Assembly (NCBI RefSeq): GCF_022919215.1
Contig: NZ_CP095046.1
Span: 558,001-622,000 of the forward strand
From: Hymenobacter cellulosilyticus
Lineage (GTDB): Bacteria > Bacteroidota > Bacteroidia > Cytophagales > Hymenobacteraceae
Direction: 5' to 3'
Length of the DNA: 64,000 nucleotides
Translations under genes and position numbers: made by a program
Shown here: one piece after another, positions 1 to 14,068 of the stretch
Position numbering within the stretch: position 1 is the first letter of the stretch
How the letters are laid out: every line of letters starts with the position of its first letter
The notes under the pieces: generated by a model
Seen by the model: only the letters and a program-made list of their open reading frames with translations
What the model was told of the DNA's origin: nothing
Database searches by the model: none

Positions 1-430
1 TGCGCTGCAAGCCCGCCGCCACCGAAGCCCCGGCCACGATGAGTACCAGCTTCTTTTTGGTAGCCGCCCCGTGCTCGTCCAGCAGGCGGGCAATGGTGTG
101 CTGCAGCTCCTCATCCAGCACTGCCGCCGAGCCCAGGTACACCGACAGCTCGGCCCCGCTCGTATCCAGGGCCATGAGCTGGTTGCGGGTAATTACCTCC
201 TCCAGCTCATCCTCATCCGCGGGCACAATCAGCTCGTGGTACATGAGCACGTTGAACAGGTTGTCGGGAATAGCTGTGAAGTTGCCGGCCTCAATCAGCG
301 ACCAGACGTAGTTGGAAATAGTAATGCCCATCCCCTTCCGCGTCGAGAAGAGCATGCGCTTGGATGTCAGCGTTTCTTCCGCGTCGAAGGCATCTGAGAG
401 AAGCGCGTATCTGGATTTCTTTAAATTCAT
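1..430 (-). CDS. SPASM-maturase-like protein, apparently cysteine-less (partial, C-terminus beyond window)
   Basis: The gene starts at the ATG at 430 and runs off the left edge (about 143 residues visible). Its N-terminus resembles that of the radical SAM/SPASM maturase at 1810-3219: an LFSTRKG segment matches AYSTRTG there, and LIVPADEDELEEVI matches ILVPAEEDELASII. Further on, the DEELQHTIARLLDEH helix and the KKLVLIVAGAS strand align with that maturase's SDDLVNKLVERIYDKF and KKIYIGWFGAE. Where the neighbour has its CxxxCxxC cluster loop, this protein reads AELSVYLG with no cysteine. I infer a degenerate radical SAM paralogue, possibly a non-catalytic partner or peptide-binding subunit. It follows the P450 by about 85 bases in the same direction and is probably the last visible gene of the RiPP operon. 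The C-terminal half is unseen, so a SPASM domain cannot be checked. Confidence 0.6.
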   Translation of the reverse strand, partial: MNLKKSRYALLSDAFDAEETLTSKRMLFSTRKGMGITISNYVWSLIEAGNFTAIPDNLFNVLMYHELIVPADEDELEEVITRNQLMALDTSGAELSVYLGSAAVLDEELQHTIARLLDEHGAATKKKLVLIVAGASVAAGLQR

Positions 431-514
431 ACCCGAGTTCTTTACACTGTGGAGTAAGATGTAGTCCTGCCTACCAAGCCAGCCGGCCAGCCGCCACGCA
501 GCCACCGAAGAACC

Positions 515-1673
515 TTACAGAGCAGTATTCCAGGTTACTTGCAGCTTCACCGAAGACGGGCCGCGCTGCACGTAGGGAGCCGTGCGCCAGTTCGTGCCAC
601 CCTTAATAGGTGCGTAGGCCGTGGTGCGGGCAATAAACTTGCTCAGGGCGGTGCCGGCCTGCATATGCGCCAGGCGCGCGCCAATGCAGCGGTAGGCACC
701 CGTACCGTAGCTCAGGTGGGCTGGCTTGCGGGTCAGGTCCAGCCCATCAGGGTTGGTAAACACGCTGGGGTCCCGGTTGGCCGCTCCCACACAAATCAGG
801 ATTTGGCTGCCGGCGGCAATGGTTTTGGTACCCAGGGGAATGGGCCTTTGGCAAACAGCAGGAAGAACTGCACCGGACTGTCGTAGCGCAGCAATTCGTC
901 TACGCACTCATACACCCGGGCCGGCTGCTCCCGCAAGGTAGCCTGCTCGGCCTGGTGCTTGTCGAGGGCCAGAATGGCATTGCCCAGGAAGTTCATCATG
1001 TTATCGTGGCCCGCGTAGAACAGCAGAATCAGCATCGACAGGATAAACGACTCGTCTTCTTCCTCCCGGCGGCAAGCGTCAATCAGGGCGCTGCACAGGT
1101 CGTCGCCGGGGTTCTCCTTCTTATGCTCGATAAATGTGCGCAAAAAGCTCAGAAACAAGCCCCCGACTCCCGCTGTCGTGGGTTATAAATCAGGCCCAGG
1201 TACATACCGTCCAGCTCAGCCACCGTTTCACTCAGGGCCGGAATGTCCTCGTCGGGAATACCGATGATGCGGCTAATGGTTTCGAAGGTCAGCGGGTGGG
1301 CGTAATCCTTGATAAAGTCAATTTCTTCCTTACCCACCAACTTATCAAGCAGTTTGTCGGCCTGCTCCTGCATGGCTTTGCCATCAAACTTCAGGTTTTT
1401 GCCAGCCAAGGCGTGCATCACGTTTTTGCGGTAGGGCAGTCCACTGTCGGGAGCAAAGGCAAACAGCGTTTTGGCAACAGCACTTTTGCCGGAGAAGAGA
1501 ATGGCCTGCGTTTCGGAATCCTGCCCCCAGTGGGAGCACAAGGGATTCTGCAGCAGCGACAAAGCATCCTGATAACCCGTAATAACCCACTGCGTCGGCG
1601 AAACCCGATAAATTGGATTCTCATTTCGTACTTTATGGTAGGCCGGATACGGGTCAACCGTAGGAATGGGCAT
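515..1673 (-). CDS. Cytochrome P450 of the RiPP cluster (two apparent single-base deletions)
   Basis: About 386 residues, the usual length of a soluble bacterial P450. In order: N-terminal DPYPAYHKVRNENPIYR; I-helix YAGHDNMMNFLG; ExxR as ELLRYDSP; and the haem loop YGTGAYRCIGARLA with the ligand Cys. Two features are atypical: the I-helix Thr that usually follows the acidic residue is replaced (AGHDNMMN), and the haem loop has Tyr where Phe and His are common. The frame breaks at a C run at 1160-1164 (reads on as ESGGLFLSFL if one base is restored) and near 857-862 (FAKRPIPLG if one base is restored). Both resume with all motifs intact, so the gene is probably functional. It lies between the SPASM maturase and the degenerate SPASM-like gene, suggesting oxidation or cross-linking of the peptide or of an isoprenoid. 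The substrate is unknown. Confidence 0.85.
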
Positions 1674-1809
1674 AGGGCGCCTACCAAGAACGAGGATGCT
1701 TTCGTGTTCATAAGAATAGATAAATAGTAAGATAAAAGGAGTAGCTATAGTAGTACTAGGCTGGCGGTAAAGCCGGCCGGCCCAGTGGGATAATATGCGG
1801 CTGTGCAGC

Positions 1810-3219
1810 TTAGCGGTAGCGCACGAAATCTTCTTCGGCGAAGGCGTTTTCGAAGGCCGTTAGCACAGCGTCCATTTCGGCCAGGGGAGTCGTAGCCAAC
1901 AGGTACTTAAACTCCATTTCCTTCTGAATATTAAACTTATACGGTGGGCAGGCCGAATTACCCTCTACCCACGACTTAGGGCAGCTTCCTCCGCAGATGG
2001 GCAGCAACCGGCAGCTATGGCAGGGGTATTTGTCGGTGTCGCGCACGATGCTATACCAGTCGTTGTGAGGCTTCACGTCGAATGTCTTGAGCGTGTCCTG
2101 CTGCAGGGTACCGAGCTTGTAGTCCTTGTTTTCGTAGAAGTCGGAATAGGACACTTCCGTGCAGTTGAAGATGTTACCGAAGGCGTCGTACAGCTCCCCT
2201 TTGCCGCCCGTGGCCATGCAGGTGGTTTTCTTCCGCTTGTGCATGGTGGTGTGGAAGGGGTAGCCTAGCTTCACCTGCAAAATCTCCCATTGCAGCTTCA
2301 TACGGGCAAACTGTTCCTTGGTCAAGGACTTGGTCTGAGCATCATTGCCGCCCCAGGAGTAAATCCCGATGAAGTACAGGTTGTAAATGCGGCGGTGCAG
2401 GTTGTCGGCGGCAATAAGTCGAATCAGCGGCTCTACCCCTTCTACGTTGTTGATATCCACATTGCAGCGGATAGTCATTCGGGTTTTGGCGGGGTTGTAA
2501 TCGGGGCTGGAAACGATGCGCTTAACATTCTGATAAATAATATTAAACGAAGGCCCGCCTGCCTTGGTAAAGCGGTGACTGTCGTGGTACTCCTCTACTC
2601 CGTCAAGGGTTATTTCGAAGGTATCCACGTTGAGTTCCTGCACCAGCTCAGCAAAGATGTTTTCTTTCAGGCTCAAGCCGTTAGAAACAATCTTCCCCCC
2701 AATATGCACCGTTGGATCCGCAATGCGGGCCGTCAGGCGGCGGTAGATGGCCCGCATCTGGGGCAGCCCCATCAAGGGCTCGGCGCCAAACCAGCCGATG
2801 TAAATTTTCTTGTAGTTGCCCTTCACGAACTTGTCGTAAATGCGTTCTACCAGCTTATTCACCAGATCGTCGGAGATGCTGCTCTTCACGTGCTGCTGCC
2901 CGCAGTAGTAGCAGCCCAACTGGCACATGGCGCTCGGCTGAATTACTTCGTTGAGCTGGCCCTGCTCGGTTTCGCCGAAATCAATGTTCTCGTTGATAAT
3001 GCTAGCTAGCTCGTCTTCTTCGGCTGGCACCAGAATGCCGGTTTTAATCAGCTTTTCCTGGATATAGACCGGAATACTGCCCACCAGGCCGTTTTGCAGA
3101 AAGTCGTGGCAGAGGCTGCTGAGCGAGACTATATGGCCCGTACGAGTGGAATAAGCCAATCTGGTGTTCTTACCATCGATTGGATTCGTGATTATGGTAT
3201 AATAGGAAAGCTTATACAT
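1810..3219 (-). CDS. Radical SAM/SPASM peptide maturase
   Basis: 469 residues. The N-terminal ~90 residues form a small domain of the kind that precedes many peptide-modifying SPASM enzymes. The radical SAM cluster loop is CQLGCYYC (C99, C103, C106), followed by GWFGAEPL, the equivalent of the GGEP motif. The C-terminus has a Cys-rich SPASM-type pattern, CHSCRLLPICGGSCPKSW followed by a further Cys, which would bind auxiliary FeS clusters. Family knowledge: such enzymes install thioether, carbon-carbon or similar cross-links in ribosomal peptides. It lies 49 bases downstream of the PqqD/M50 gene in the same operon as four precursor genes. Their conserved C-terminal Cys and Trp are the obvious candidate target residues, but the reaction cannot be deduced. 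Confidence 0.88.
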   Translation of the reverse strand: MYKLSYYTIITNPIDGKNTRLAYSTRTGHIVSLSSLCHDFLQNGLVGSIPVYIQEKLIKTGILVPAEEDELASIINENIDFGETEQGQLNEVIQPSAMCQLGCYYCGQQHVKSSISDDLVNKLVERIYDKFVKGNYKKIYIGWFGAEPLMGLPQMRAIYRRLTARIADPTVHIGGKIVSNGLSLKENIFAELVQELNVDTFEITLDGVEEYHDSHRFTKAGGPSFNIIYQNVKRIVSSPDYNPAKTRMTIRCNVDINNVEGVEPLIRLIAADNLHRRIYNLYFIGIYSWGGNDAQTKSLTKEQFARMKLQWEILQVKLGYPFHTTMHKRKKTTCMATGGKGELYDAFGNIFNCTEVSYSDFYENKDYKLGTLQQDTLKTFDVKPHNDWYSIVRDTDKYPCHSCRLLPICGGSCPKSWVEGNSACPPYKFNIQKEMEFKYLLATTPLAEMDAVLTAFENAFAEEDFVRYR

Positions 3220-3268
3220 ATAGTACGATTCATAAATAGTTTATAAAATAACCTAGTACTTACTTAAT

Positions 3269-4525
3269 TCAAGCGCCCAGGGCTACAGCCTCGGGTTGGG
3301 CCGGAGCCCGGGTAGCAAAATATTTATTCCTTACGCCCTCAATAATAGACTTAATCAACATATAGTAGAAGACGAAAGGTATAAATAATTTTGCAATGTT
3401 GCTCTTCAACCAGAAAAAATCTATTTGTTTAAAATCAAACAGCAGTCCGTGGACGAAGGAGTATAGGTTAAGTGGGAAGTTGAGCAGGGAATGGTGGTTG
3501 AAAAAGAGCATGTATCCGGCAAAGGCGATAAACGCGCCGGCCGAGACCAAGCCATAGGCCGTCAGGAATAAGGCGCGTCGGCTGTGGTCCCAGTTCTTGT
3601 TGATGCCAATGCACATACCAAAGAACTTACCCAGGGCCGTCATCGACTTGCCTTTGAGGTTGGAGATATTCAGGGCGTCGCTCAGGGCCCAGTAGCCGTC
3701 GTAACGCAGCAGCGGGTTGAGGTTGGCGGCAACGGAGAGGCCAATGACGAAGGAAATATAGAGCAGGGCCTTTTCCCGGGTAAGGTAAAAAGCAATGGTG
3801 AGCAGCACGCACATGAGCAGCTGCATGTAAATGCCGCCGAAATCGACAATGAGCCGCTCGTGGCGCTTGAGGCGCCAGGTGTCGGTTACGTCGGCGTAGA
3901 ACACGGGCGTAAAGACGTAGAAGCCAAAACCAATGGCCCCGCTGTTGGCGCCAAACCGCTCACAGGCCGCCGCGTGCCCAAACTCGTGGAGCAGCAGGCT
4001 TAGGTAAACCACCGACACTAGCACGCCCAGCAGCTTAGGATTGGAGTCGTGGTAGATGGCCTGAATATCGATGTTGAACGCAAAGTTGGCGGCCAGGAAA
4101 ACCAGGCTGGCCACAAACAGAACCACGAACAGCTTGACGCTGAACAGAAAAGTGAGAAAGGGCGTAATTTTTTTGACCACCCAGGCCGGCAGCAAGGTCA
4201 TCCGCAGCTTCAGGTACTCGTCCTGGGCCTTAATCCGGTCCAGGTTGTCGGTGTCGAAAATGCCGTAGCCGACCAACTGCTTGTTGAAGATAGAAATGAT
4301 GTCTTCCACCGAGAAGTTGACCTGGTTGGCGCGGTTGAAGGCGTAGGTGATGTCCTCCAGGTTGCGGTTGCCGTCAATCTGCTCCAACAGGCTCTTGGTC
4401 AACTGGTTGACATTGAGCTTGATAGGTGTAATTCCGTCGATGCACAGGACGTAGGTGTTTTTATCAAACTGTACGTACGAGTGCTGCTCGGCTAGCTGGG
4501 GAACGTACTCCTTACTGATTTCCAT
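3269..4525 (-). CDS. PqqD-like domain fused to M50-type membrane metallopeptidase
   Basis: 418 residues. Residues ~10-95 look like a PqqD-type peptide-binding domain (KLNVNQLTKSLLEQIDGNRN, then an acidic helix). Several hydrophobic segments follow, with HEFGH at 180-184 and NPLLRYDGYW near 270-279; these are the two zinc-site motifs of site-2-protease-like M50 peptidases. Family knowledge: similar putative peptide zinc metalloproteases occur in RiPP clusters and may remove leaders or cut the peptide in the membrane. The start overlaps the end of the 672-residue cyclase-like gene by 14 bases, implying translational coupling. I infer that it binds the leader through the PqqD part and processes the peptide at the inner membrane. 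Confidence 0.82.
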   Translation of the reverse strand: MEISKEYVPQLAEQHSYVQFDKNTYVLCIDGITPIKLNVNQLTKSLLEQIDGNRNLEDITYAFNRANQVNFSVEDIISIFNKQLVGYGIFDTDNLDRIKAQDEYLKLRMTLLPAWVVKKITPFLTFLFSVKLFVVLFVASLVFLAANFAFNIDIQAIYHDSNPKLLGVLVSVVYLSLLLHEFGHAAACERFGANSGAIGFGFYVFTPVFYADVTDTWRLKRHERLIVDFGGIYMQLLMCVLLTIAFYLTREKALLYISFVIGLSVAANLNPLLRYDGYWALSDALNISNLKGKSMTALGKFFGMCIGINKNWDHSRRALFLTAYGLVSAGAFIAFAGYMLFFNHHSLLNFPLNLYSFVHGLLFDFKQIDFFWLKSNIAKLFIPFVFYYMLIKSIIEGVRNKYFATRAPAQPEAVALGA

Positions 4526-6530
4526 GGATGGCGGTAGCTAATTGATGATAACGCTGCAGGGCCCGGAGCGAAACCGCAGTAGAAAACAGGTTGGCCACTT
4601 CCCCGGTAATAGAGTTGCCGCCGCCCGCTTTATTGATTTTCAGGCGCTTTTTGGACTGGTACCAGTTCAGCGTCGTCGGATTAGGAATAACCAGGAAGTT
4701 GGAGCCCGCAAAGCCCCCGTCCTCGTACTGATTGGCCAGCAGCCAGTCTTTCATCCGGAGGGCGTTGCCGTGGTACCTGGCCAACAGGGCCGGCGCGGCG
4801 GTAATGGTATCCAGCACCAAGGCGGTGTAGAACACGCTCTTCTGCTTTAGAATCTCGCAGGAAAAGCTGCCGTCCTTGTTCTGCTTGCCGACGATGTAGT
4901 CCAGGGCCCGGTTTATTTCGGCCGTGAAATCCTCCTCGTCGCGCAGCATTCCCTGCACCACGAAGCAGGTTGGGTACAAATAGGAAGTCCACCAGTACGG
5001 CTGCCAGATGCCTTTCTCCGACTTGTTGGCCAGGATATAGGCTTTTAGCGCGGCCCGCTGCTCCCGGAAGCTGCTCTGGTTTTCCAGGTGGCTAAGGAAG
5101 TAATAAGCCAGGGCGCTAACGCAGATGTGGGAGCTGGTCCAGCCATTGAGCTGGGTTTTCTTTAGGCCCAGCTGGCTGACCAGGTTAAAGGCCGTGTCGG
5201 AATACGTGCGGAAGCCGCCGGTGCTGGTCTGGCCCTCAAACCACAGGCCCAGATACGGCTCAATGGCGTGCTCCGCGTTGTTCAGGGCAAACAGCACGCA
5301 GGTCGTCGAGTCGAAATCGAAAACCCAGTCGGTGTTGTAGCCCCAGAGGTGGTCTTGCTGGTTGCCGAGCAGAAACTCGCTGGCCTTGGCCAGGTTCGGA
5401 TTGTCTTTTTCCAGGTAAGAAGCCACGAAGCCCGTCGACCAGACGTTGCTCAGGCCCTGCATGTTCGTTACTTCAAACCACGACCCGTCGTCACTCTGCA
5501 GGCGTTCAATATATTTCTTGGAGCGCGCAATGGCTTCTTCAATGCTCGTTTGATTACCGAATGTGGTGCTGATAATTTTTTCCAGCAGCTTATTCACCCG
5601 GTAGGCTTGCACATTGACCTTGTAGAAATTTATCTTATTTCTAACTAGGTCAATGATTTTGATATAGTCCGTCAGCTCGTTGCGGTACGGCTCAATTTCG
5701 TCGATGGCCTTCTGATAATAACTCTTCGAGAGAGTCATCATCCGTTCGGCGGTTTCGGAGGTAAACAGGTACTTTTCCAGTACCTCGGGCGTATAGTCCT
5801 TCAGCTTTTTGCCATTCGACTTCAGCCAAGCTTGCAGGAAAATATGGCCCAGGTTATTTTTCTCGTACTGAAGGTCTTTTTTAAAATCCTCCAGGTCGTC
5901 CTGAATGCAGCGGGCAATGGCAAAGTAATCCAGCGACTGGGTTAGCGCCCGGTGCAGCTCAGTCTGACTGCTGTTTTTGGCGTAATAGGCATCGGCGCCT
6001 ACTTTCGAGAAGGCGCACTTATTGATGGCCAACCGGGTGTAGGTATCGAAGCTCATCTGCACATTGTATTCTTTGTCGAGTAGAATACTGGCCAGAAACT
6101 CGTAGTTGCGCTGGTTCCACAGCACCCAGAAGGCATCCTTCTTCCCAAAATGCCGGGAGAGAATCTTCATCGACTCCTCGTGGTAGATGTGGGACTGCAG
6201 CAGCAGGTGGCTTTCCCGCTCGGCACTGGCGGGTCCCGATATGTCGTCCTTGTCGTGCATGGCATCCAGGCACAGCAGGTACTTGAAGTAGAAGAATCCC
6301 GAAACGCACACTTGGTGGACAAACAAGCTGTTCCGTTCCCCAAAAGCCTTCCGGAATAAATACGGAAAGACTAAATAATACTCCGAGTCGAAGAAGGAAT
6401 TAGGAAAAGCTAAGTGCTTTAAACTACCTGGAAGTGAAACGTTGTCGTCCAAATAAGTTAAAAATGACTGGCGCAGATTCTCGGTAGTTTTATCCAGATG
6501 AGAAAAGCGCACTTTACTGATGTCAATCAT
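4512..6530 (-). CDS. Fusion protein: isoprenyl-synthase-like domain plus squalene-cyclase/prenyltransferase repeat domain
   Basis: 672 residues with no signal peptide. The N-terminal ~320 residues are all-helical, with two acidic motifs spaced as in trans-isoprenyl diphosphate synthases: LDAMHDKDD at ~88-96 and DDLEDFKKD at 211-219. From ~335 there are at least four alpha-alpha-toroid repeats with QW-like motifs (LQSDDGSW, QNKDGSF, NQYEDGGF) and a DFDSTT at 405-410 that resembles the DxDD(T) acid motif of class II terpene cyclases. The same fold is used by protein prenyltransferase beta subunits, but I do not see their Asp-x-Cys...His zinc set clearly. This is the first enzyme gene after the precursors. 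I infer prenyl or terpene chemistry on the peptide. It could instead make a separate terpenoid, or use the fold only for peptide binding. Confidence 0.72.
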   Translation of the reverse strand: MIDISKVRFSHLDKTTENLRQSFLTYLDDNVSLPGSLKHLAFPNSFFDSEYYLVFPYLFRKAFGERNSLFVHQVCVSGFFYFKYLLCLDAMHDKDDISGPASAERESHLLLQSHIYHEESMKILSRHFGKKDAFWVLWNQRNYEFLASILLDKEYNVQMSFDTYTRLAINKCAFSKVGADAYYAKNSSQTELHRALTQSLDYFAIARCIQDDLEDFKKDLQYEKNNLGHIFLQAWLKSNGKKLKDYTPEVLEKYLFTSETAERMMTLSKSYYQKAIDEIEPYRNELTDYIKIIDLVRNKINFYKVNVQAYRVNKLLEKIISTTFGNQTSIEEAIARSKKYIERLQSDDGSWFEVTNMQGLSNVWSTGFVASYLEKDNPNLAKASEFLLGNQQDHLWGYNTDWVFDFDSTTCVLFALNNAEHAIEPYLGLWFEGQTSTGGFRTYSDTAFNLVSQLGLKKTQLNGWTSSHICVSALAYYFLSHLENQSSFREQRAALKAYILANKSEKGIWQPYWWTSYLYPTCFVVQGMLRDEEDFTAEINRALDYIVGKQNKDGSFSCEILKQKSVFYTALVLDTITAAPALLARYHGNALRMKDWLLANQYEDGGFAGSNFLVIPNPTTLNWYQSKKRLKINKAGGGNSITGEVANLFSTAVSLRALQRYHQLATAIHGNQ

Positions 6531-6596
6531 ATAATTATTGTAAAAACAGTTTCATAGAATTCTATCCAGTCCAAAATTCCTTTCCTGCAGAAGCTC

Positions 6597-6645
6597 AAAA
6601 AATGCTTAACAGTTTACCGTTGCAGTTCACTGTTAAGCATTTTTT
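6597..6645 (-). terminator. Hairpin between precursor genes and enzyme genes (attenuator-like)
   Basis: Perfect 17-base arms at 6597-6613 and 6629-6645 flank a 15-base loop, with A/T runs at the stem ends that give a U-run in either direction. It lies after the last precursor gene (ends 6707) and before the first enzyme gene (starts 6530), with all genes on the minus strand. A leaky terminator here would give much more precursor than enzyme mRNA, a common arrangement in RiPP operons. The read-through role is inferred. Confidence 0.8.
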
Positions 6646-6706
6646 AGAGCATCCATTTCACCGGCTGAGGACCATGCACTACACGGCCCCCAGCCGGTGA
6701 CCTAGC

Positions 6707-6871
6707 TTAGCCGATCCAGCACACAGCGTTGCCGGTAACGTCGATAGCGGCATCAGCCACAGCCGTCAGCTCCAGACGGTTTTCCAGCTCTTCAACACTA
6801 AAAAGCTCGAGTTTCTGGTCTTCCGACAGGTCGGTGATTTTAGATAGCAGTTGGGTCTGATCGTTGTTCAT
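6707..6871 (-). CDS. RiPP precursor peptide, copy 1 (most downstream)
   Basis: 54 residues. An acidic helical leader (MNNDQTQLLSKITDLSEDQK, then an LELFSVEELE-type stretch) is followed by LTAVADAAIDVTGNAV and the terminal CWIG. Position 6 is Thr and position 41 is Ala in this copy. It contains one Cys and one Trp, adjacent, three and two residues before the terminal Gly. It is the last of four tandem paralogues and the closest to the hairpin and the modifying enzymes. There is no GlyGly leader-cleavage motif before the core. It is too short for ordinary gene callers, but synonymous differences between copies with a constant protein show it is coding. Confidence 0.9.
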   Translation of the reverse strand: MNNDQTQLLSKITDLSEDQKLELFSVEELENRLELTAVADAAIDVTGNAVCWIG

Positions 6872-6926
6872 AAAACAAGAAATTGAAAGGTGAGAAAGGA
6901 AAAGGATAATCGAAAAGTGGCTTAAA

Positions 6927-7091
6927 CTAGCCGATCCAGCACACGGCGTTACCGGTAACGTCGATGGCAGAATCAGCCACAGCCGTCAATTCCAGGCGGT
7001 TTTCGAGTTCTTCCACGCTGAAGAGTTCGAGTTTCTGGTCCTCCGACAGGTCGGTGATTTTGGACAGCAGTTGGGTCTGATCGTTGTTCAT
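6927..7091 (-). CDS. RiPP precursor peptide, copy 2
   Basis: 54 residues ending in VCWIG, with Thr at position 6 and Ser at position 41. It is separated from copy 1 by 55 bases and from copy 3 by 52 bases of A-rich spacer carrying the same upstream element (rich in AGAAAAGTGGAAA on the + strand). It differs from the other copies at many third codon positions, which supports old duplications under purifying selection. It stops with TAG; copies 1, 3 and 4 stop with TAA. Confidence 0.9.
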   Translation of the reverse strand: MNNDQTQLLSKITDLSEDQKLELFSVEELENRLELTAVADSAIDVTGNAVCWIG

Positions 7092-7143
7092 AAAAAGGAA
7101 TTAGAAAAGTGGAAAAAAGGAAGGAAAATAGGTAAGCAAAGGC

Positions 7144-7308
7144 TTAGCCGATCCAGCACACGGCGTTACCGGTAACATCAATAGCGGCGTCGGCCACGGC
7201 GGTCAGCTCCAACCGGTTTTCCAGCTCTTCGACGCTGAAAAGCTCGAGTTTCTGGTCTTCCGACAAATCCGTGATTTTGGACAGCAGCTGGTTTTGATCG
7301 TTGTTCAT
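7144..7308 (-). CDS. RiPP precursor peptide, copy 3
   Basis: 54 residues with Asn at position 6 and Ala at position 41; otherwise identical to the other copies, ending in NAVCWIG. The start at 7308 matches the start position in all copies. It shares its upstream sequence (AAAAAAGGAGTTAGAAAAGT on the + strand) with copy 4, so these two spacers are the most recent duplicates. No canonical Shine-Dalgarno is needed in this phylum, and none is obvious. Confidence 0.9.
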   Translation of the reverse strand: MNNDQNQLLSKITDLSEDQKLELFSVEELENRLELTAVADAAIDVTGNAVCWIG

Positions 7309-7371
7309 AAAAAAGGAGTTAGAAAAGTGGAAAAATGAAAAAAGGGTAAGCAGAATGTAAACGGGTAGCGC

Positions 7372-7536
7372 TTAGCCAATCCAGCACACGGCGTTGCCGG
7401 TAACGTCGATGGCAGAATCGGCCACGGCGGTTAGTTCCAGGCGGTTTTCGAGTTCTTCCACGCTGAAGAGTTCGAGTTTCTGGTCCTCCGACAGGTCGGT
7501 GATTTTGGACAGCAGCTGGTTTTGATCGTTGTTCAT
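7372..7536 (-). CDS. RiPP precursor peptide, copy 4 (first in transcription order)
   Basis: 54 residues with Asn at position 6 and Ser at position 41, ending in CWIG. The frame stays open upstream to a possible start at 7632, but the extra 32 residues are absent from the other three copies, so the start at 7536 is chosen. This is the first gene after the ~600-base non-coding region that should hold the operon promoter. Confidence 0.88.
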   Translation of the reverse strand: MNNDQNQLLSKITDLSEDQKLELFSVEELENRLELTAVADSAIDVTGNAVCWIG

Positions 7537-8142: not shown

Positions 8143-9326
8143 TTACTCTTCCCGCAACGAAAGGGCTGGCCGTATACCCGTGGCTAGCTGACTTGGATAG
8201 ACGGCACACAGAGTAACCAGTCCGTAGATAAGACCCAGGCCCAGCGCTATAGCCAGGATATAAACGCCAGCCGGCACATTGAACACGCCCAAAATGGGGA
8301 ACTGAATAACGGCTAATACGCCCAGTGATAAGCCGAAGGTGGTAATGATCAGAATCTCGCCCAGAATCTGACTACTAATAGCACCGGCACTGGCTCCAAT
8401 AGCGCGACGCAGGCCTATTTCGACGCGGCGGCGGCTGATATTGAGCCACATCACGCCGAATATTCCCAAGGCTACGTTCATCGTCAGGAACAGACATACG
8501 ATACCGAGCATGGTGGGCAGGGCCAGTAGCATTTTGAGCTTGGCCAGGCGCTGCTCGCCCAAGGCCAAAATGGTACTGTTTAAAGAAGGATTGGTGGAGT
8601 GAATTTGCGCGGCCAGCTGCTTTTTCAGCGCGGCCCCGGCCCCGGGCGCCACCCGAACGAGCAGGGTCGATAAGGCTTCCGCGGTGTCATTAGGGCTGAC
8701 GTAGAGCATGATGGCGGGACGTGGAGTGCTTAGCTCGCCGCCGGCGCGGTAGGAGTTGGTTACGCCCACTACCTGCCACTCCTCGTTCAGGCCCCGCACG
8801 ATTTTACCGATAGGCGACTTCCCCGGAAACAAAGCGGCGCGGGTTGCCTCCGTAATGACCACTGGCCGGCGAGTAGCAGCTTCGTCGCGGCGGTCAAACC
8901 ACCGGCCTTCGGCTATCTGCAGATCGAGCACGTTTTGCAGCTCGGGCCAGCAAAGTAGATGTCGGTGGTTTCTGAGCGGCGCTTGTTAGTGCCCTCGCCG
9001 GCGTCCAGTTTGATGGTGCCATTGTTGAACGAGAAAGGCGTATTCTCGCCGCTACGGGCCACGCTGCTTACCCCAGGCGTGGACTTGAGGCGCTGCACCA
9101 CTTGCTGCAGGGTAGCAAACTGCTGGCCGGTTTGGTTTCCTTGCTTCAGGCTGATCTGCCACACATCCTGGTACTGAAAGCCCAGAGGCGTCTGGTAGTT
9201 CTGCCGCATGTACAGTATCAGGCTAGTCACGGCAAACACCGCAATAAAGGCCAGGAATATCTCGGTAACCAGCAGGGCATTGGCCCGGCGACGGTTCCAA
9301 ATAAGGGTAAGGAGGTGGCGTATCAT
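8143..9326 (-). CDS. FtsX-like ABC permease, second of the exporter (one apparent base deletion)
   Basis: About 394 residues. There is an N-terminal membrane segment (ALLVTEIFLAFIAVFAVTSL) and a periplasmic MacB-like core. The C-terminal half has the FtsX fold with three membrane segments and a RRRVEIGLRRAIGAS loop, characteristic of MacB-type permeases. The frame breaks at a G run at 8944-8946; restoring one base gives IYFAGPELQNVLDLQIAEG. Its start overlaps the stop of the first permease by 4 bases. The two permeases probably form a heterodimer driven by the ATPase at 10606-11298. I infer export of the mature RiPP; a general drug or lipoprotein substrate is also possible. Confidence 0.82.
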
Positions 9327-10576
9327 ACCTTGAAGTCGGCTTTTAGTGCCTGTACTACAGGCAGTTTCGACATTTTATAAGCTGGGTAAGCCCCCGACAG
9401 CGCCCCAAAAAACAGGGCCGTTAGGATGCCGGCCCCAAACACCCGGGCATTCAGCGCGAAGTCGGAGTAAGGCATAAACTGGCTGTAGTTGAGCAGCATC
9501 AGGGCGCCGGCGGCCAGAGCCAGGCCGAGCAGGCCCCCGAGCAGGGTCAGAAACACGTTCTCGAACAGGAACTGGGCCACCAGCGTCCGGGAAGTAGCGC
9601 CAAAGGCCTTGCGCACCCCGATTTCGGAGGAGCGCTCCAGCATGCGGCTCACGTTCACGTTGACCAGGTTCAGGGCGGGCAGCAACATAAAGAGCAACGC
9701 CATTACCAAGGAAACCTGCACCATGCGCCCTACTCCACCTTCCGCGTCGGCGTTGTTGTTGAAGCGGGCCGTGAGCGAAGCCAGCAGAGTGCGGGCGTAC
9801 GAGTGGACGGCTTTGTACTTTTTGGGGTCGGGCATGGGCACCTGCTCAATGATGCGGGCATACTCCTGCTGGATGGTGGCTACGTCGGCAGGCTTGCTGG
9901 CCAGGGCAATAGCCTGGTAGTTGCCGATATAGGCCGGGTCGCGCAGGTCTTCGTTGGTGGTCGTGATGGGCACCCAGAAGTCGGCGTAGGAGTTGGAGCG
10001 CGAAATGGGCACGTCGCGCACCACACCGACCACGCGGTAGTGTACGGCCCCGGCTTCGAACGTGCGGCCAACCACGCCGGTGCTGGTACCGAAGTACTTA
10101 CGGCTGGTGCTTTCGTTGATAACCGCTACCAGAGCGGCCTCGCGCACTTCGGTGGCGGTATAAGGCCGGCCTTCTACGAAGTTGAAATTCAGCACTTGCC
10201 AAAACTCACTGTCGGTTAGCTTGCGGTCCAGCTTCAGGGTACTTTCCCCCACGTAGGCCTCCACGTTGTTGTAGTTGCCTTCGCTCAGGGAGATTTTCTC
10301 GGGAGTCCGCATGGGCCGCACGTAACGGTCAAGGAAGGAGTAGCCGATAAAGCCGTTGCTTTGTCCTCCCTCCTGGGCCACCAGCTGAATCCGGTTGATG
10401 AATACCAGCCGGTCGACCTGGGTTTCGGGGGTGTGGGGGCCCACGGTATAGTCGAAAATGGCGTAGAGCACCAGCAGCACCATAAGAGTCAGGCTGGTTC
10501 CGAAGAGGCTGATGAAGGTGAAAAACCGCCGCCGCAGCAGCACCTTCCAGGCAATTTTCAGATAATTGAGCAACAT
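9323..10576 (-). CDS. FtsX-like ABC permease, first of the exporter
   Basis: 417 residues in one intact frame. One membrane segment lies near residues 20-42, then a large periplasmic domain, then three C-terminal membrane segments with the loop SSEIGVRKAFGATSRTLVAQ between the first two, as in MacB/FtsX permeases. It is 29 bases downstream of the ATPase gene and overlaps the next permease by 4 bases. It belongs to the tripartite exporter with the adaptor and outer-membrane factor upstream. Confidence 0.88.
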   Translation of the reverse strand: MLLNYLKIAWKVLLRRRFFTFISLFGTSLTLMVLLVLYAIFDYTVGPHTPETQVDRLVFINRIQLVAQEGGQSNGFIGYSFLDRYVRPMRTPEKISLSEGNYNNVEAYVGESTLKLDRKLTDSEFWQVLNFNFVEGRPYTATEVREAALVAVINESTSRKYFGTSTGVVGRTFEAGAVHYRVVGVVRDVPISRSNSYADFWVPITTTNEDLRDPAYIGNYQAIALASKPADVATIQQEYARIIEQVPMPDPKKYKAVHSYARTLLASLTARFNNNADAEGGVGRMVQVSLVMALLFMLLPALNLVNVNVSRMLERSSEIGVRKAFGATSRTLVAQFLFENVFLTLLGGLLGLALAAGALMLLNYSQFMPYSDFALNARVFGAGILTALFFGALSGAYPAYKMSKLPVVQALKADFKV

Positions 10577-10605
10577 AAGATAGGAGTCTAAAACGCGTGC
10601 GGGTT

Positions 10606-11298
<693 letters not shown>

Positions 11299-11352
11299 GG
11301 TAGTAGCGGTAAAGAGGATAGAGATAAAAGAGACGAAGCAGGACCGCCGGCG

Positions 11353-12809
11353 CTATTGCGCAGCCAGGGGCTGTTGCTTTTCAAAATCATATAGGGTGAG
11401 AGCCCGCAGGCGGTAATAGGCCACCCAGCCGGCCCGCAGAGCGGCAATGTAGCTGCGGCGAGCCCCGTCTTTGGCCTGAGAAGCCAGGCTCAGATCGGTC
11501 AGGCTGATGCGGCCGAGCAGGTAGGTGGAGCGGGCAATGTTGTAGCGCTGCTGGGCCACGGAGTCGGCGTGCTGGGCCAGGCGGAGCTGCACGGCCAGCT
11601 GTTGCTGCTGCCCGGCTTCGGTAAGCACGCTTTGGGCAAAGCTGCGCTCTTCCTGGGCTACGGTATGCTGCACCTGGTCGCGGGTGAGCTTGGCGGTCTT
11701 CACCACGGCCTGTCGGTGCCCCAGTCGAGCAACGGTACCGAGAAAGACAGCTTCACCTGCTGCTGATTGCGCAGATCTTGCAGACTATTATTCAATTCCG
11801 GAGCCTGATTGACATAGCCCAGGTTGGCCGAGAGCGTGGCCTGCATACCGGTTGTGCCCCGGGCCTGGGCCACGTCGCGCTCGGCTTCGAGCAAGCGGCG
11901 CTGAAAGGCCAGCATGGCGCTCCGGTGCTGACGGGCCTGCTCCAACGCTACTTCGGGCGCCACTACGGGCTGGGGCACCAAAGCCGGTACGTCTAGGGCC
12001 GGGGCACCGGTAAGCCCGGTGTAGGCCTGGAGCTCCACGGTGGCATTCTGGGCGCTGAGCTGGGCTTGAATCTTGGCTTGCTGAGCATCAAGCAAGTTAA
12101 GCTCAAGTTGCAGTAAGTCGCTCTGGGAAAGGCGGCCCAAGCGGTACCGTTCCTGCCCGATGCGCAGCAACTCGTCGGTAGCCTGGGCATTCTGGCGGGC
12201 CACTTCGGCATTTACCTGCTGCAGCAGCACGTCGAAGTACAATTCGGTAGTGCGCTGGGCAATCTTTTCCCGCTCTTCCAAGAACTGCCGCTGGCTTTCC
12301 TGGTAGCGCAGGGGCTCGATGCGGCGGTTCCAGTGCAACTCGTTGAACTGCCCGATGGGCTGCGTCAGGCCCAGCGTAAATGGCTGACTGTTGTAGCGCT
12401 TGGCCTTGCCGATAAAGTCGTCGTAGCGCAGCACATCGGCTCCCACGATAACCTGGCCCCCGGTCAGACCGATATTCTGCCTGACGGCCAGCCCCACATT
12501 GGAGTTGTTATTCTTGATTTGCCTGAATACAATGGAACCGTCCTCGGGCTGCACTACCGGAGTGATTGTGCTGCTATAGTTAGGCAGGGTGCCCTGCAGG
12601 CCGAGTTGGGGGCGGTACGTAGAGCGGTAGTCGCGCCACTGCCAGTAGCCGATTTCCCGGTCGGTGTTGGCTTGCTTGCCAATGGCTGAGTGATTCAGGG
12701 CCAGGGAAATAACCTCGTCGAGGTTGAGAGGACGGCTGGCCGTTTGGGCCATTACCGCGTGGAAGGGCAGTCCCAGCAGTGCCAGGAAAGGAAGGATCCG
12801 GAATTTCAT
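11353..12809 (-). CDS. TolC-like outer-membrane efflux protein (one apparent base deletion)
   Basis: About 485 residues with a signal peptide (FLALLGLPFHAVMAQ). The sequence has two halves of long helices typical of outer-membrane factors, with RLGRLSQSDLLQLELNLL in the first half and STYLLGRISLTDLSLA in the second. The frame breaks near 11715: a missing base in a CCC run on the coding strand turns DWGTRQAVVKTAKL into an early stop. Restoring it joins two perfect halves. It is 12 bases downstream of the adaptor gene. It provides the outer-membrane exit duct of the exporter. Confidence 0.85.
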
Positions 12810-12821
12810 GGTCGTAGGGCC

Positions 12822-14068
12822 TTACTCGGTGATGCTCAGCTCCGGCGTATCCAGATACTCCTTCATGTCGGACACGATGACCTGCTCACCCTGCCGCAAA
12901 CCACTCACAATCTGCACGTAGTCGAAGTTGCTGTCGCCAAAGCGCACGGTGCGCTGGCTGGCCTTGCCGTCCTTCACCACGAACACCGACTGTTCCTGAC
13001 CGCCCTGGTAGAAAGCGCCGTTCTTCACCCGTACCACGTTGTGGTGGCCTTTGGTAACCACGAATACATCCACGCGCAGGTTGGACCGCAGGGCCGGATG
13101 ATGGTCCTGATCGAGCTGGGCGTAGAAGGTTACCACACCCTTATCCACGGCCGGGCTGATGGTGCTAATCGTGCCGCGCAGGTCGGTGCCGTTGATGCGC
13201 ACTACCACCGGGTCGCCCACGTGCAGAGCATCAGCATAGGCGTCGGAAATGGTAGCCCGCACTTTGAAGCTGCTCAGGTCGGCCACGCGGGCCAATGGGG
13301 CCCCCTGCTCTACTGAGCCCCGATGTCGTCGTTTACCCAGGTCAGTACGCCACCATCCTGGGCGCTGATGGTAGCTTGAGCCAGCTTACCGGCCAGCTCG
13401 GCTATAGCACGGTTCTGAATAGCCATAGTATATCCCAGTTCCCGCACATCGGCCGCGTTGGAGCGTTGTTGGGTCTGAATCTGGCGGGCCAGGCGGTCGG
13501 CTTCCAGCTGAGCTACTTTCAGGTTCAGCTCGGCTTGGCGTACCGTTTCGGCCGTGCCGCCGCCAATTTTGAGCAGTTGCTGCTCATCGCGCAGGTTGGA
13601 CTGCAGGCTTCTTACTTTGGCCGCCTGCACTTCTACCTGAGTCCGTAGGTCGTTCAGGTCGCGCTCCAGGCCGAGCTGCAGCTGGGAGTTTTTGTTGCGG
13701 TTGCGCAGTTGCTCATCGTCCAGCTTGGCCAGGCTCGAAGCGGCAGCTTCTTTGTCCAGCTCCAAGATGGTTTGACCCGGTGCCAAGCGGGCTCCTACTG
13801 CCACGGCTACTCGCCGGATAGTGCTTTGGATGGGGCTGGTAATAACTGCCTCGTGACCGGGAATCAGGATGCCGGCAGCGGTCAGTGAGGCTTCCACATC
13901 CCCTATTTCTACCGGGGCCATCAGGATGACGCTGCGCTGGATACTAGGCTTCAGAAATGAGCGAAAAGCCATTGTACCGCTGAGAAGTATGACCACCAGA
14001 GCCAAGCTAAGCAACCAGCGCCGCCGACTTTTCTGGCTTCTAACTTTGGGAGCTATTAGTCTGTCCAT
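12822..14068 (-). CDS. HlyD/MacA-type periplasmic adaptor (one apparent base deletion)
   Basis: About 415 residues. An N-terminal membrane anchor (LLSLALVVILLSGTMAF) precedes a biotinyl-lipoyl-like domain, a long coiled-coil hairpin (~120-220, rich in Gln/Leu/Arg heptads), and a C-terminal beta-barrel and membrane-proximal part. The frame breaks at the C run 13318-13321; one restored base gives NDDIGGSVEQGAPLARV. It is the first gene of the exporter operon; a 618-base non-coding region lies upstream. It bridges the inner-membrane permeases and the TolC-like duct. Confidence 0.85.

Follow-up and report, generated by a model that had tools for sequence, protein, structure and literature searches.

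Gene content of the cluster

This study concerns a cluster of genes for a ribosomally synthesized and post-translationally modified peptide (RiPP), which lies at the start of a 64,000-nucleotide stretch of DNA from Hymenobacter cellulosilyticus (G000:C1:558001-622000 of a 3-contig genome), hereafter called the window. The cluster genes are all on the minus strand and run in the order of four precursor genes, a gene encoding a prenyl-synthase-like (P) and a terpene-cyclase-like (C) domain in one protein (P-C fusion), an M50 peptidase gene with a domain resembling the RiPP recognition element (RRE), a radical SAM (rSAM)/SPASM gene, a cytochrome P450 gene and the start of a SPASM-like gene, after which a 308-aa protein is encoded outside the window (Table 1). 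A preliminary description of the DNA had named the genes from the precursors to the SPASM-like gene, and all of them were located, the P450 and SPASM-like genes being split into frames. Two more Hymenobacter genomes, G407 and G408, share this gene set and its order, with the P450 and SPASM-like genes intact. Chryseobacterium sp. ISL-6 (L020) shows the order too, as does Parachryseolinea (L018), there with a MacB permease gene inserted within the cluster. Given this recurrence, the arrangement in the window is not due to chance. The window's fusion is 90% identical to one of Hymenobacter chitinivorans DSM 11115. This joint recurrence of precursors and enzymes in other genera supports the earlier assignment as a RiPP cluster.

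Table 1. Features of the cluster and of its upstream neighbours, in window coordinates
Feature	Position	Strand	Description
Precursor peptide 1	7372-7536	-	54 aa; leader to RLE, core LTAVADSAIDVTGNAVCWIG; begins at an inner ATG within a longer frame
Precursor peptide 2	7144-7308	-	54 aa; core LTAVADAAIDVTGNAVCWIG
Precursor peptide 3	6927-7091	-	54 aa; core LTAVADSAIDVTGNAVCWIG
Precursor peptide 4	6707-6871	-	54 aa; core LTAVADAAIDVTGNAVCWIG
P-C fusion	4512-6530	-	672 aa, single open frame
RRE-M50 protein	3269-4525	-	418 aa, single open frame
Radical SAM/SPASM peptide maturase	1810-3219	-	469 aa, single open frame; PF04055, TIGR04085
Cytochrome P450	515-1673	-	three overlapping frames: 1149-1673, 796-1158, 515-907
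SPASM-like protein, N-terminal part	2-505	-	remainder beyond the window start, with frame break
MacB-type permeases, ABC ATPase, TolC-like and HlyD-like genes	8143-14068	-	Pfam; upstream of the precursors

Both folds implied by the earlier prenyl-synthase/cyclase label were found in the fusion. Residues ~6-301 have a trans-prenyl-diphosphate-synthase fold with the acidic residues D89, D93 and D211, D212, D215, D219, and residues 327-665 resemble the monodomain class II terpene cyclase MstE (PDB 6sbb) in fold and in acidic motif (D405, D407). The best fold matches were class II cyclases and trans-prenyl synthases; for the C half, MstE stood level in Z with 8pak and 8paj, two small cyclases (39.8, 39.2). 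MstE was also the best PDB match of the fusion family profile, its D109 aligning on D407. It shares only ~20% identity with the C half, and according to the entry titles its solved complexes hold prenylated dihydroxybenzoate, not a peptide. Both Asp motifs are conserved in 59/59 P domains, among them that of the window, and 49/50 C-half rows aligned at the site keep D405/D407. In the Pfam scan the prenyl-synthase family was unmatched in the window fusion; a divergent relative matches PF00348 (E 2.3e-5) under the cut-off, as the C half does, narrowly, for the toroid family PF00432.

The M50 protein combines a PqqD/RRE-like fold (residues 1-92) with a site-2-protease-like fold (residues 161-288; HExxH at 180-184, NPxxxxD at 270-276), in agreement with the PqqD-M50 label given to it before. 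Both fold calls come from a second structure aligner, the Foldseek search of the M50 model against PDB having returned nothing under E 0.001. Its best NCBIfam match was NF041824 (daptide HExxH protease), with a score of 137.6 against a cut-off of 300. Cleavage of RiPP precursors by M50 proteases has been published, and EpeP, TglG/TmoG and the daptide protease are described as membrane M50 proteases of RiPP pathways; the window protein differs from these in its N-terminal PqqD-like domain.

The rSAM enzyme (PF04055, 2.2e-9; TIGR04085, 7.9e-10) likewise deserves its name, since the CxxxCxxC motif (CQLGCYYC at residue 99) and the SPASM cysteines (CHSCRLLPIC at 400) are present. It matches two models of thioether maturases, TIGR04463 (9.5e-45, score 153.1) and PapB (score 83.3), below their curated equivalog cut-offs of 525 and 340, respectively. 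The P450 heme motif, YGTGAYRCIG, is found in the last of the three frame pieces. The SPASM-like protein lacks CxxxCxxC in 5/5 relatives read, and those of L020 and L077 lack the SPASM cysteine motif as well; that it serves as a scaffold is a guess.

In G407 and G408 the P450 and the SPASM-like protein are single frames of 399 and 396 aa. Against both of these close relatives, the window's strain shows single-base deletions in the two genes, and the SPASM-like gene is split beyond the window start (L017 12585-13505 and 12244-12573). No such deletion was listed for the frames of the fusion, the M50 protein and the rSAM enzyme. Such a distribution would be expected if the cluster were decaying in this strain, its product being incompletely tailored after loss of the late steps. 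We regard this as unlikely, because a GH97 glycosidase gene (N-terminal domain and enzyme remainder on separate open reading frames, ORFs), a MacB permease gene and a TolC-like gene nearby (window 8143-12809, L017 8893-11084) look split in the same way, and the completeness of the genome is 95.48. An indel-rich assembly is likely and offers the simpler reading of the split genes.

Precursor peptides and distribution of the family

To describe the family, a contig scan giving 46 loci was extended with loci from further genomes, and removal of identical anchors (last 150 residues) reduced 69 loci to 62. Near-identical pairs (L039/L044, L054/L057) were retained, and L062 and L063 match in the cyclase half only. 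The fusion occurs in 11 of 395 genomes of the phylum; 13 of 120 genus genomes match, seven of them with the P domain only (P-only; 303-315 aa where read). In 51/62 loci the fusion (or P) gene is the direct neighbour of the M50 gene, on the same strand. The preliminary description had asked whether the enzymes regularly occur in the absence of any precursor; they do not, a leader-bearing precursor lying within 9 kb in 47/62 loci. Among the 15 loci with no matching precursor, five are contigs under 5 kb and two (L079, L092) have near-miss leaders with Trp.

The four window precursors match the query copy at 96-100% identity; all have the leader LFSVEELENRLE, an internal Trp in the core and the ending CWIG. 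Across the family, the distinguishing mark is a Trp after an FxVEELExRxE leader. This leader pattern is specific: it was matched by 82 of 7717 short ORFs in the 62 loci, against 0, 0, 0, 0 and 1 of ~10,400 in five shuffles. Trp was found in 74 of the 75 unique motif-plus-core sequences retrieved with the leader-only pattern (exactly one Trp in 65), while shuffling residues among cores 1000 times gave a mean of 50.5 Trp-bearing cores and a maximum of 59. The first Trp stands 3 or 4 residues past the leader motif in 50 of these cores, and apart from Trp the 75 cores are variable. Near variants overlooked by the pattern (e.g. at L050, L079 and L092) are also Trp-bearing and were left outside these counts. 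The sole Trp-free core, which is Cys-rich, belongs to a P-only locus with intact Asp motifs (L086 627-6439, G228), whose prenyltransferase perhaps uses another acceptor residue. The CWIG ending, taken as the mark of the precursors in the preliminary description, was set aside as a family signature: a C-W pair is confined to the six P450-bearing loci among the 47 loci with cores.

A precursor profile retrieved 368 proteins from the database at E 0.1. A looser form of the motif and a Trp were present in all of the best 120 of these, where the Trp counts as supporting evidence only, the profile itself holding Trp; the readable names among the 120 are all hypothetical or uncharacterised proteins. 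The profile matches 11 of the 395 phylum genomes, nine of which are among the 11 fusion genomes, an overlap that is partly circular since seven of the nine contributed a profile row.

The P-only genes of seven genus genomes adjoin an M50 gene (L092-L094, L096-L099). A Trp directly follows the leader in the precursors of L092, L094, L096 and L098, and no precursor was seen at L093, L097 and L099. The four loci with a precursor probably prenylate Trp without closing rings. A P domain was not found within three other stretches. The first, in G017 (L118 8224-11170), encodes three precursors together with rSAM and M50 proteins and an unassigned protein of 327 aa that matches nothing in Pfam; the second locus of G385 (L120 659-4996) encodes one precursor, again rSAM and M50 proteins, and a 367-aa protein that matches Lip_A_acyltrans just under the cut-off; and G328 (L119) has an orphan leader motif only, with no Trp. 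G017 and G328 are the two profile-matching genomes that lack the fusion. Three of the four cores of L118 and L120 are Trp-free, the same position in L118 being F, F and W. Trp-free cores where no P domain is seen fit the prediction of a Trp-directed P domain, in a comparison that covers a tiny sample and includes a genome (G385) with a fusion elsewhere.

The rSAM gene is an optional part of the cluster, seen in 13/62 loci. All cores contain Cys at 13/13 rSAM-bearing loci, against 7/34 loci counted as rSAM-free (Fisher 5.5e-7), four of the latter being contigs under 7 kb on which an rSAM gene could escape notice. On a quick P-domain tree the rSAM state changes five times, with two well-supported independent rSAM/Cys pairs, too few for a paired test; a link between rSAM and Cys is plausible. 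P450 and the C-W pair coincide (6/6 P450 loci against 0/41 others, 9e-8). This association counts as a single historical event, because P450 and C-W each change once on the tree.

Proposed product and alternative readings

According to a 2026 review (PMC13290415), which credits the enzyme to Hubrich et al. 2024 (Chem 10, 3224-3242), the trans-prenyl-synthase-like P domain of ChrPC uses C10-C20 donors to modify a Trp inside a ribosomal peptide, while ring closure of the prenyl group falls to the C domain. The earlier statement that the gene combination matches no RiPP class does not hold in view of this description. Of the features of ChrPC-type systems, the window has the trans-prenyl-synthase fold with both Asp motifs, a fused cyclase with acidic motif and an adjacent precursor with internal Trp. 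By the review the class has been known since 2024, and the window cluster looks like a well-supported further example with extra tailoring enzymes, not a class of its own. The comparison is with the review's description of ChrPC, and the published cluster may either contain or lack counterparts of the rSAM, P450, SPASM-like and 308-aa genes. 'Chr' presumably stands for Chryseobacterium, in which case the published cluster could resemble L020, with the full gene order of the window. ChrPC-type enzymes are further marked by a Gln next to the second Asp-rich motif, for which the review text consulted gives no spacing; a Gln lies three residues ahead of D211 in 50/59 P-domain rows, and directly before it in 6/59, among them the window (Q210).

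Other systems resemble the window in part. ComQ/ComX and PalQ/PalX (PMC10853753, PMC13290415) also involve trans-prenyl-synthase-like enzymes that prenylate Trp of a ribosomal peptide; they are known from Bacillus and Paenibacillus, and the descriptions consulted mention no fused cyclase. ComQ is a stand-alone single domain, whereas the window protein has a cyclase fused to it. NctPC (PMC13290415) is described as a Trp-directed prenyltransferase fused to an MstE-like cyclase, but with an ABBA barrel as P domain, in place of the trans-prenyl-synthase fold found in the window. Other publications consulted concern lanthipeptide prenylation (PMC12715784) and TMcin (PMC13252029). No title or abstract opening among the literature matches listed reports a P-C cluster with rSAM and P450 genes, which is no proof of absence.

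We consider it likely that the cluster makes an isoprenoid-decorated RiPP, in which a terpene chain on the single core Trp is closed into rings; the isoprenoid-type change predicted earlier is very likely right. The Trp target and the cyclase role of the C half are proposed because of the folds, the kept motif residues, the recurring gene order and the conserved leader and Trp, all directly observed, and from these we infer the chemical steps, their order and the export. The maturation enzymes would bind the precursor leader, one of them, the M50 protein, carrying an RRE-like domain. The P domain would transfer a prenyl chain, of C10-C20 length if ChrPC is a guide, onto the sole core Trp, and the C domain would protonate this chain via D407 and close the rings. 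The rSAM/SPASM enzyme may act on the neighbouring Cys, most likely forming a thioether, perhaps assisted by the SPASM-like pseudo-enzyme, and the P450 would oxidise the product. The lipidated peptide is predicted to sit at the inner membrane and to lose its leader there to the RRE-M50 protease, and an ABC system would export it; judged by sequence, the MacB, ABC ATPase, TolC-like and HlyD-like genes upstream are a possible exporter.

The toroid half might instead be an inactive, peptide-binding scaffold, so that the prenyl chain would stay uncyclised, like that of ComX. Squalene-hopene cyclases carry DxDD, where the window has DFDS, and the P-only relatives with Trp precursors suggest that the C half may be dispensable for prenylation. 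This alternative is improbable given the near-complete conservation of D405 and D407; besides, MstE itself has DADT at this place and was solved with a cyclised product, and the C domain of ChrPC is reported to cyclise the chain (PMC13290415).

CWIG can also be read as Cys-a-a-X, so that the fusion would prenylate its Cys as eukaryotic CaaX prenyltransferases do, with the M50 protein as a CaaX-type protease. Cys is fourth from the end in 13/75 unique cores, and the match of the C half to the toroid family points the same way. This reading is very unlikely and was set aside: Cys is not conserved across cores (40/75, against 74/75 for Trp), and the fusion keeps both Asp motifs of trans-prenyl synthases, which protein farnesyltransferase (FTase) is not known to have. 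The best fold matches were of other kinds, and FTase was unseen among the 50 listed, by which a likeness to it is not excluded.

Least probable of all, the fusion would make a free terpene, as known bifunctional prenyl synthase/cyclases do, beside a separate RiPP pathway; we set this aside since the M50 and precursor genes are the constant neighbours of the fusion, the precursor profile and the fusion mostly share genomes (with the circularity mentioned above), and it is rSAM, not the fusion or M50 gene, that is optional.

Beyond this cluster, we tentatively suggest that Bacteroidota share one RiPP chassis, consisting of an FxVEELExRxE-type leader and an RRE-M50 membrane protease, with exchangeable lipidation modules (fusion, prenyltransferase alone or acyltransferase-like protein). 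Lipidation would park the precursor in the membrane for release by M50, and the window clade would add rSAM and P450 to give a Cys-Trp core with terpene polycycle, thioether and oxidation. The products of this branch would merge three chemistries on neighbouring Cys and Trp residues. Ribosomal peptides rarely carry long, ring-closed isoprenoids, and the enzymes that install such groups are useful in the production of lipidated peptides. For further searches the census provides a handle (leader motif, one core Trp, and a P-C fusion beside RRE-M50), along with the precursor candidates from the database search.

Other genes near the family loci

Beside the fusion cluster of L020, L029, L030 and L033 lie LanB-type dehydratase genes; the two representatives scanned show Lant_dehydr_N and Lant_dehydr_C. 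A lanthipeptide link was set aside: the genes are on the opposite strand in these four loci and gene clustering showed none at the other loci, so that we take them to be neighbours. L030 and L033 both contain a pair of distinct fusion genes, each accompanied by a separate M50 gene and separate precursors, and at L030 a MauE/thioredoxin-like gene follows the second fusion-M50 pair. Among the commonest extra neighbours of fusion-M50 pairs are two families of CarboxypepD_reg-like proteins, found at 10 and 13 loci (L041 8779-9951, L054 13204-14445 and relatives; two representatives scanned).

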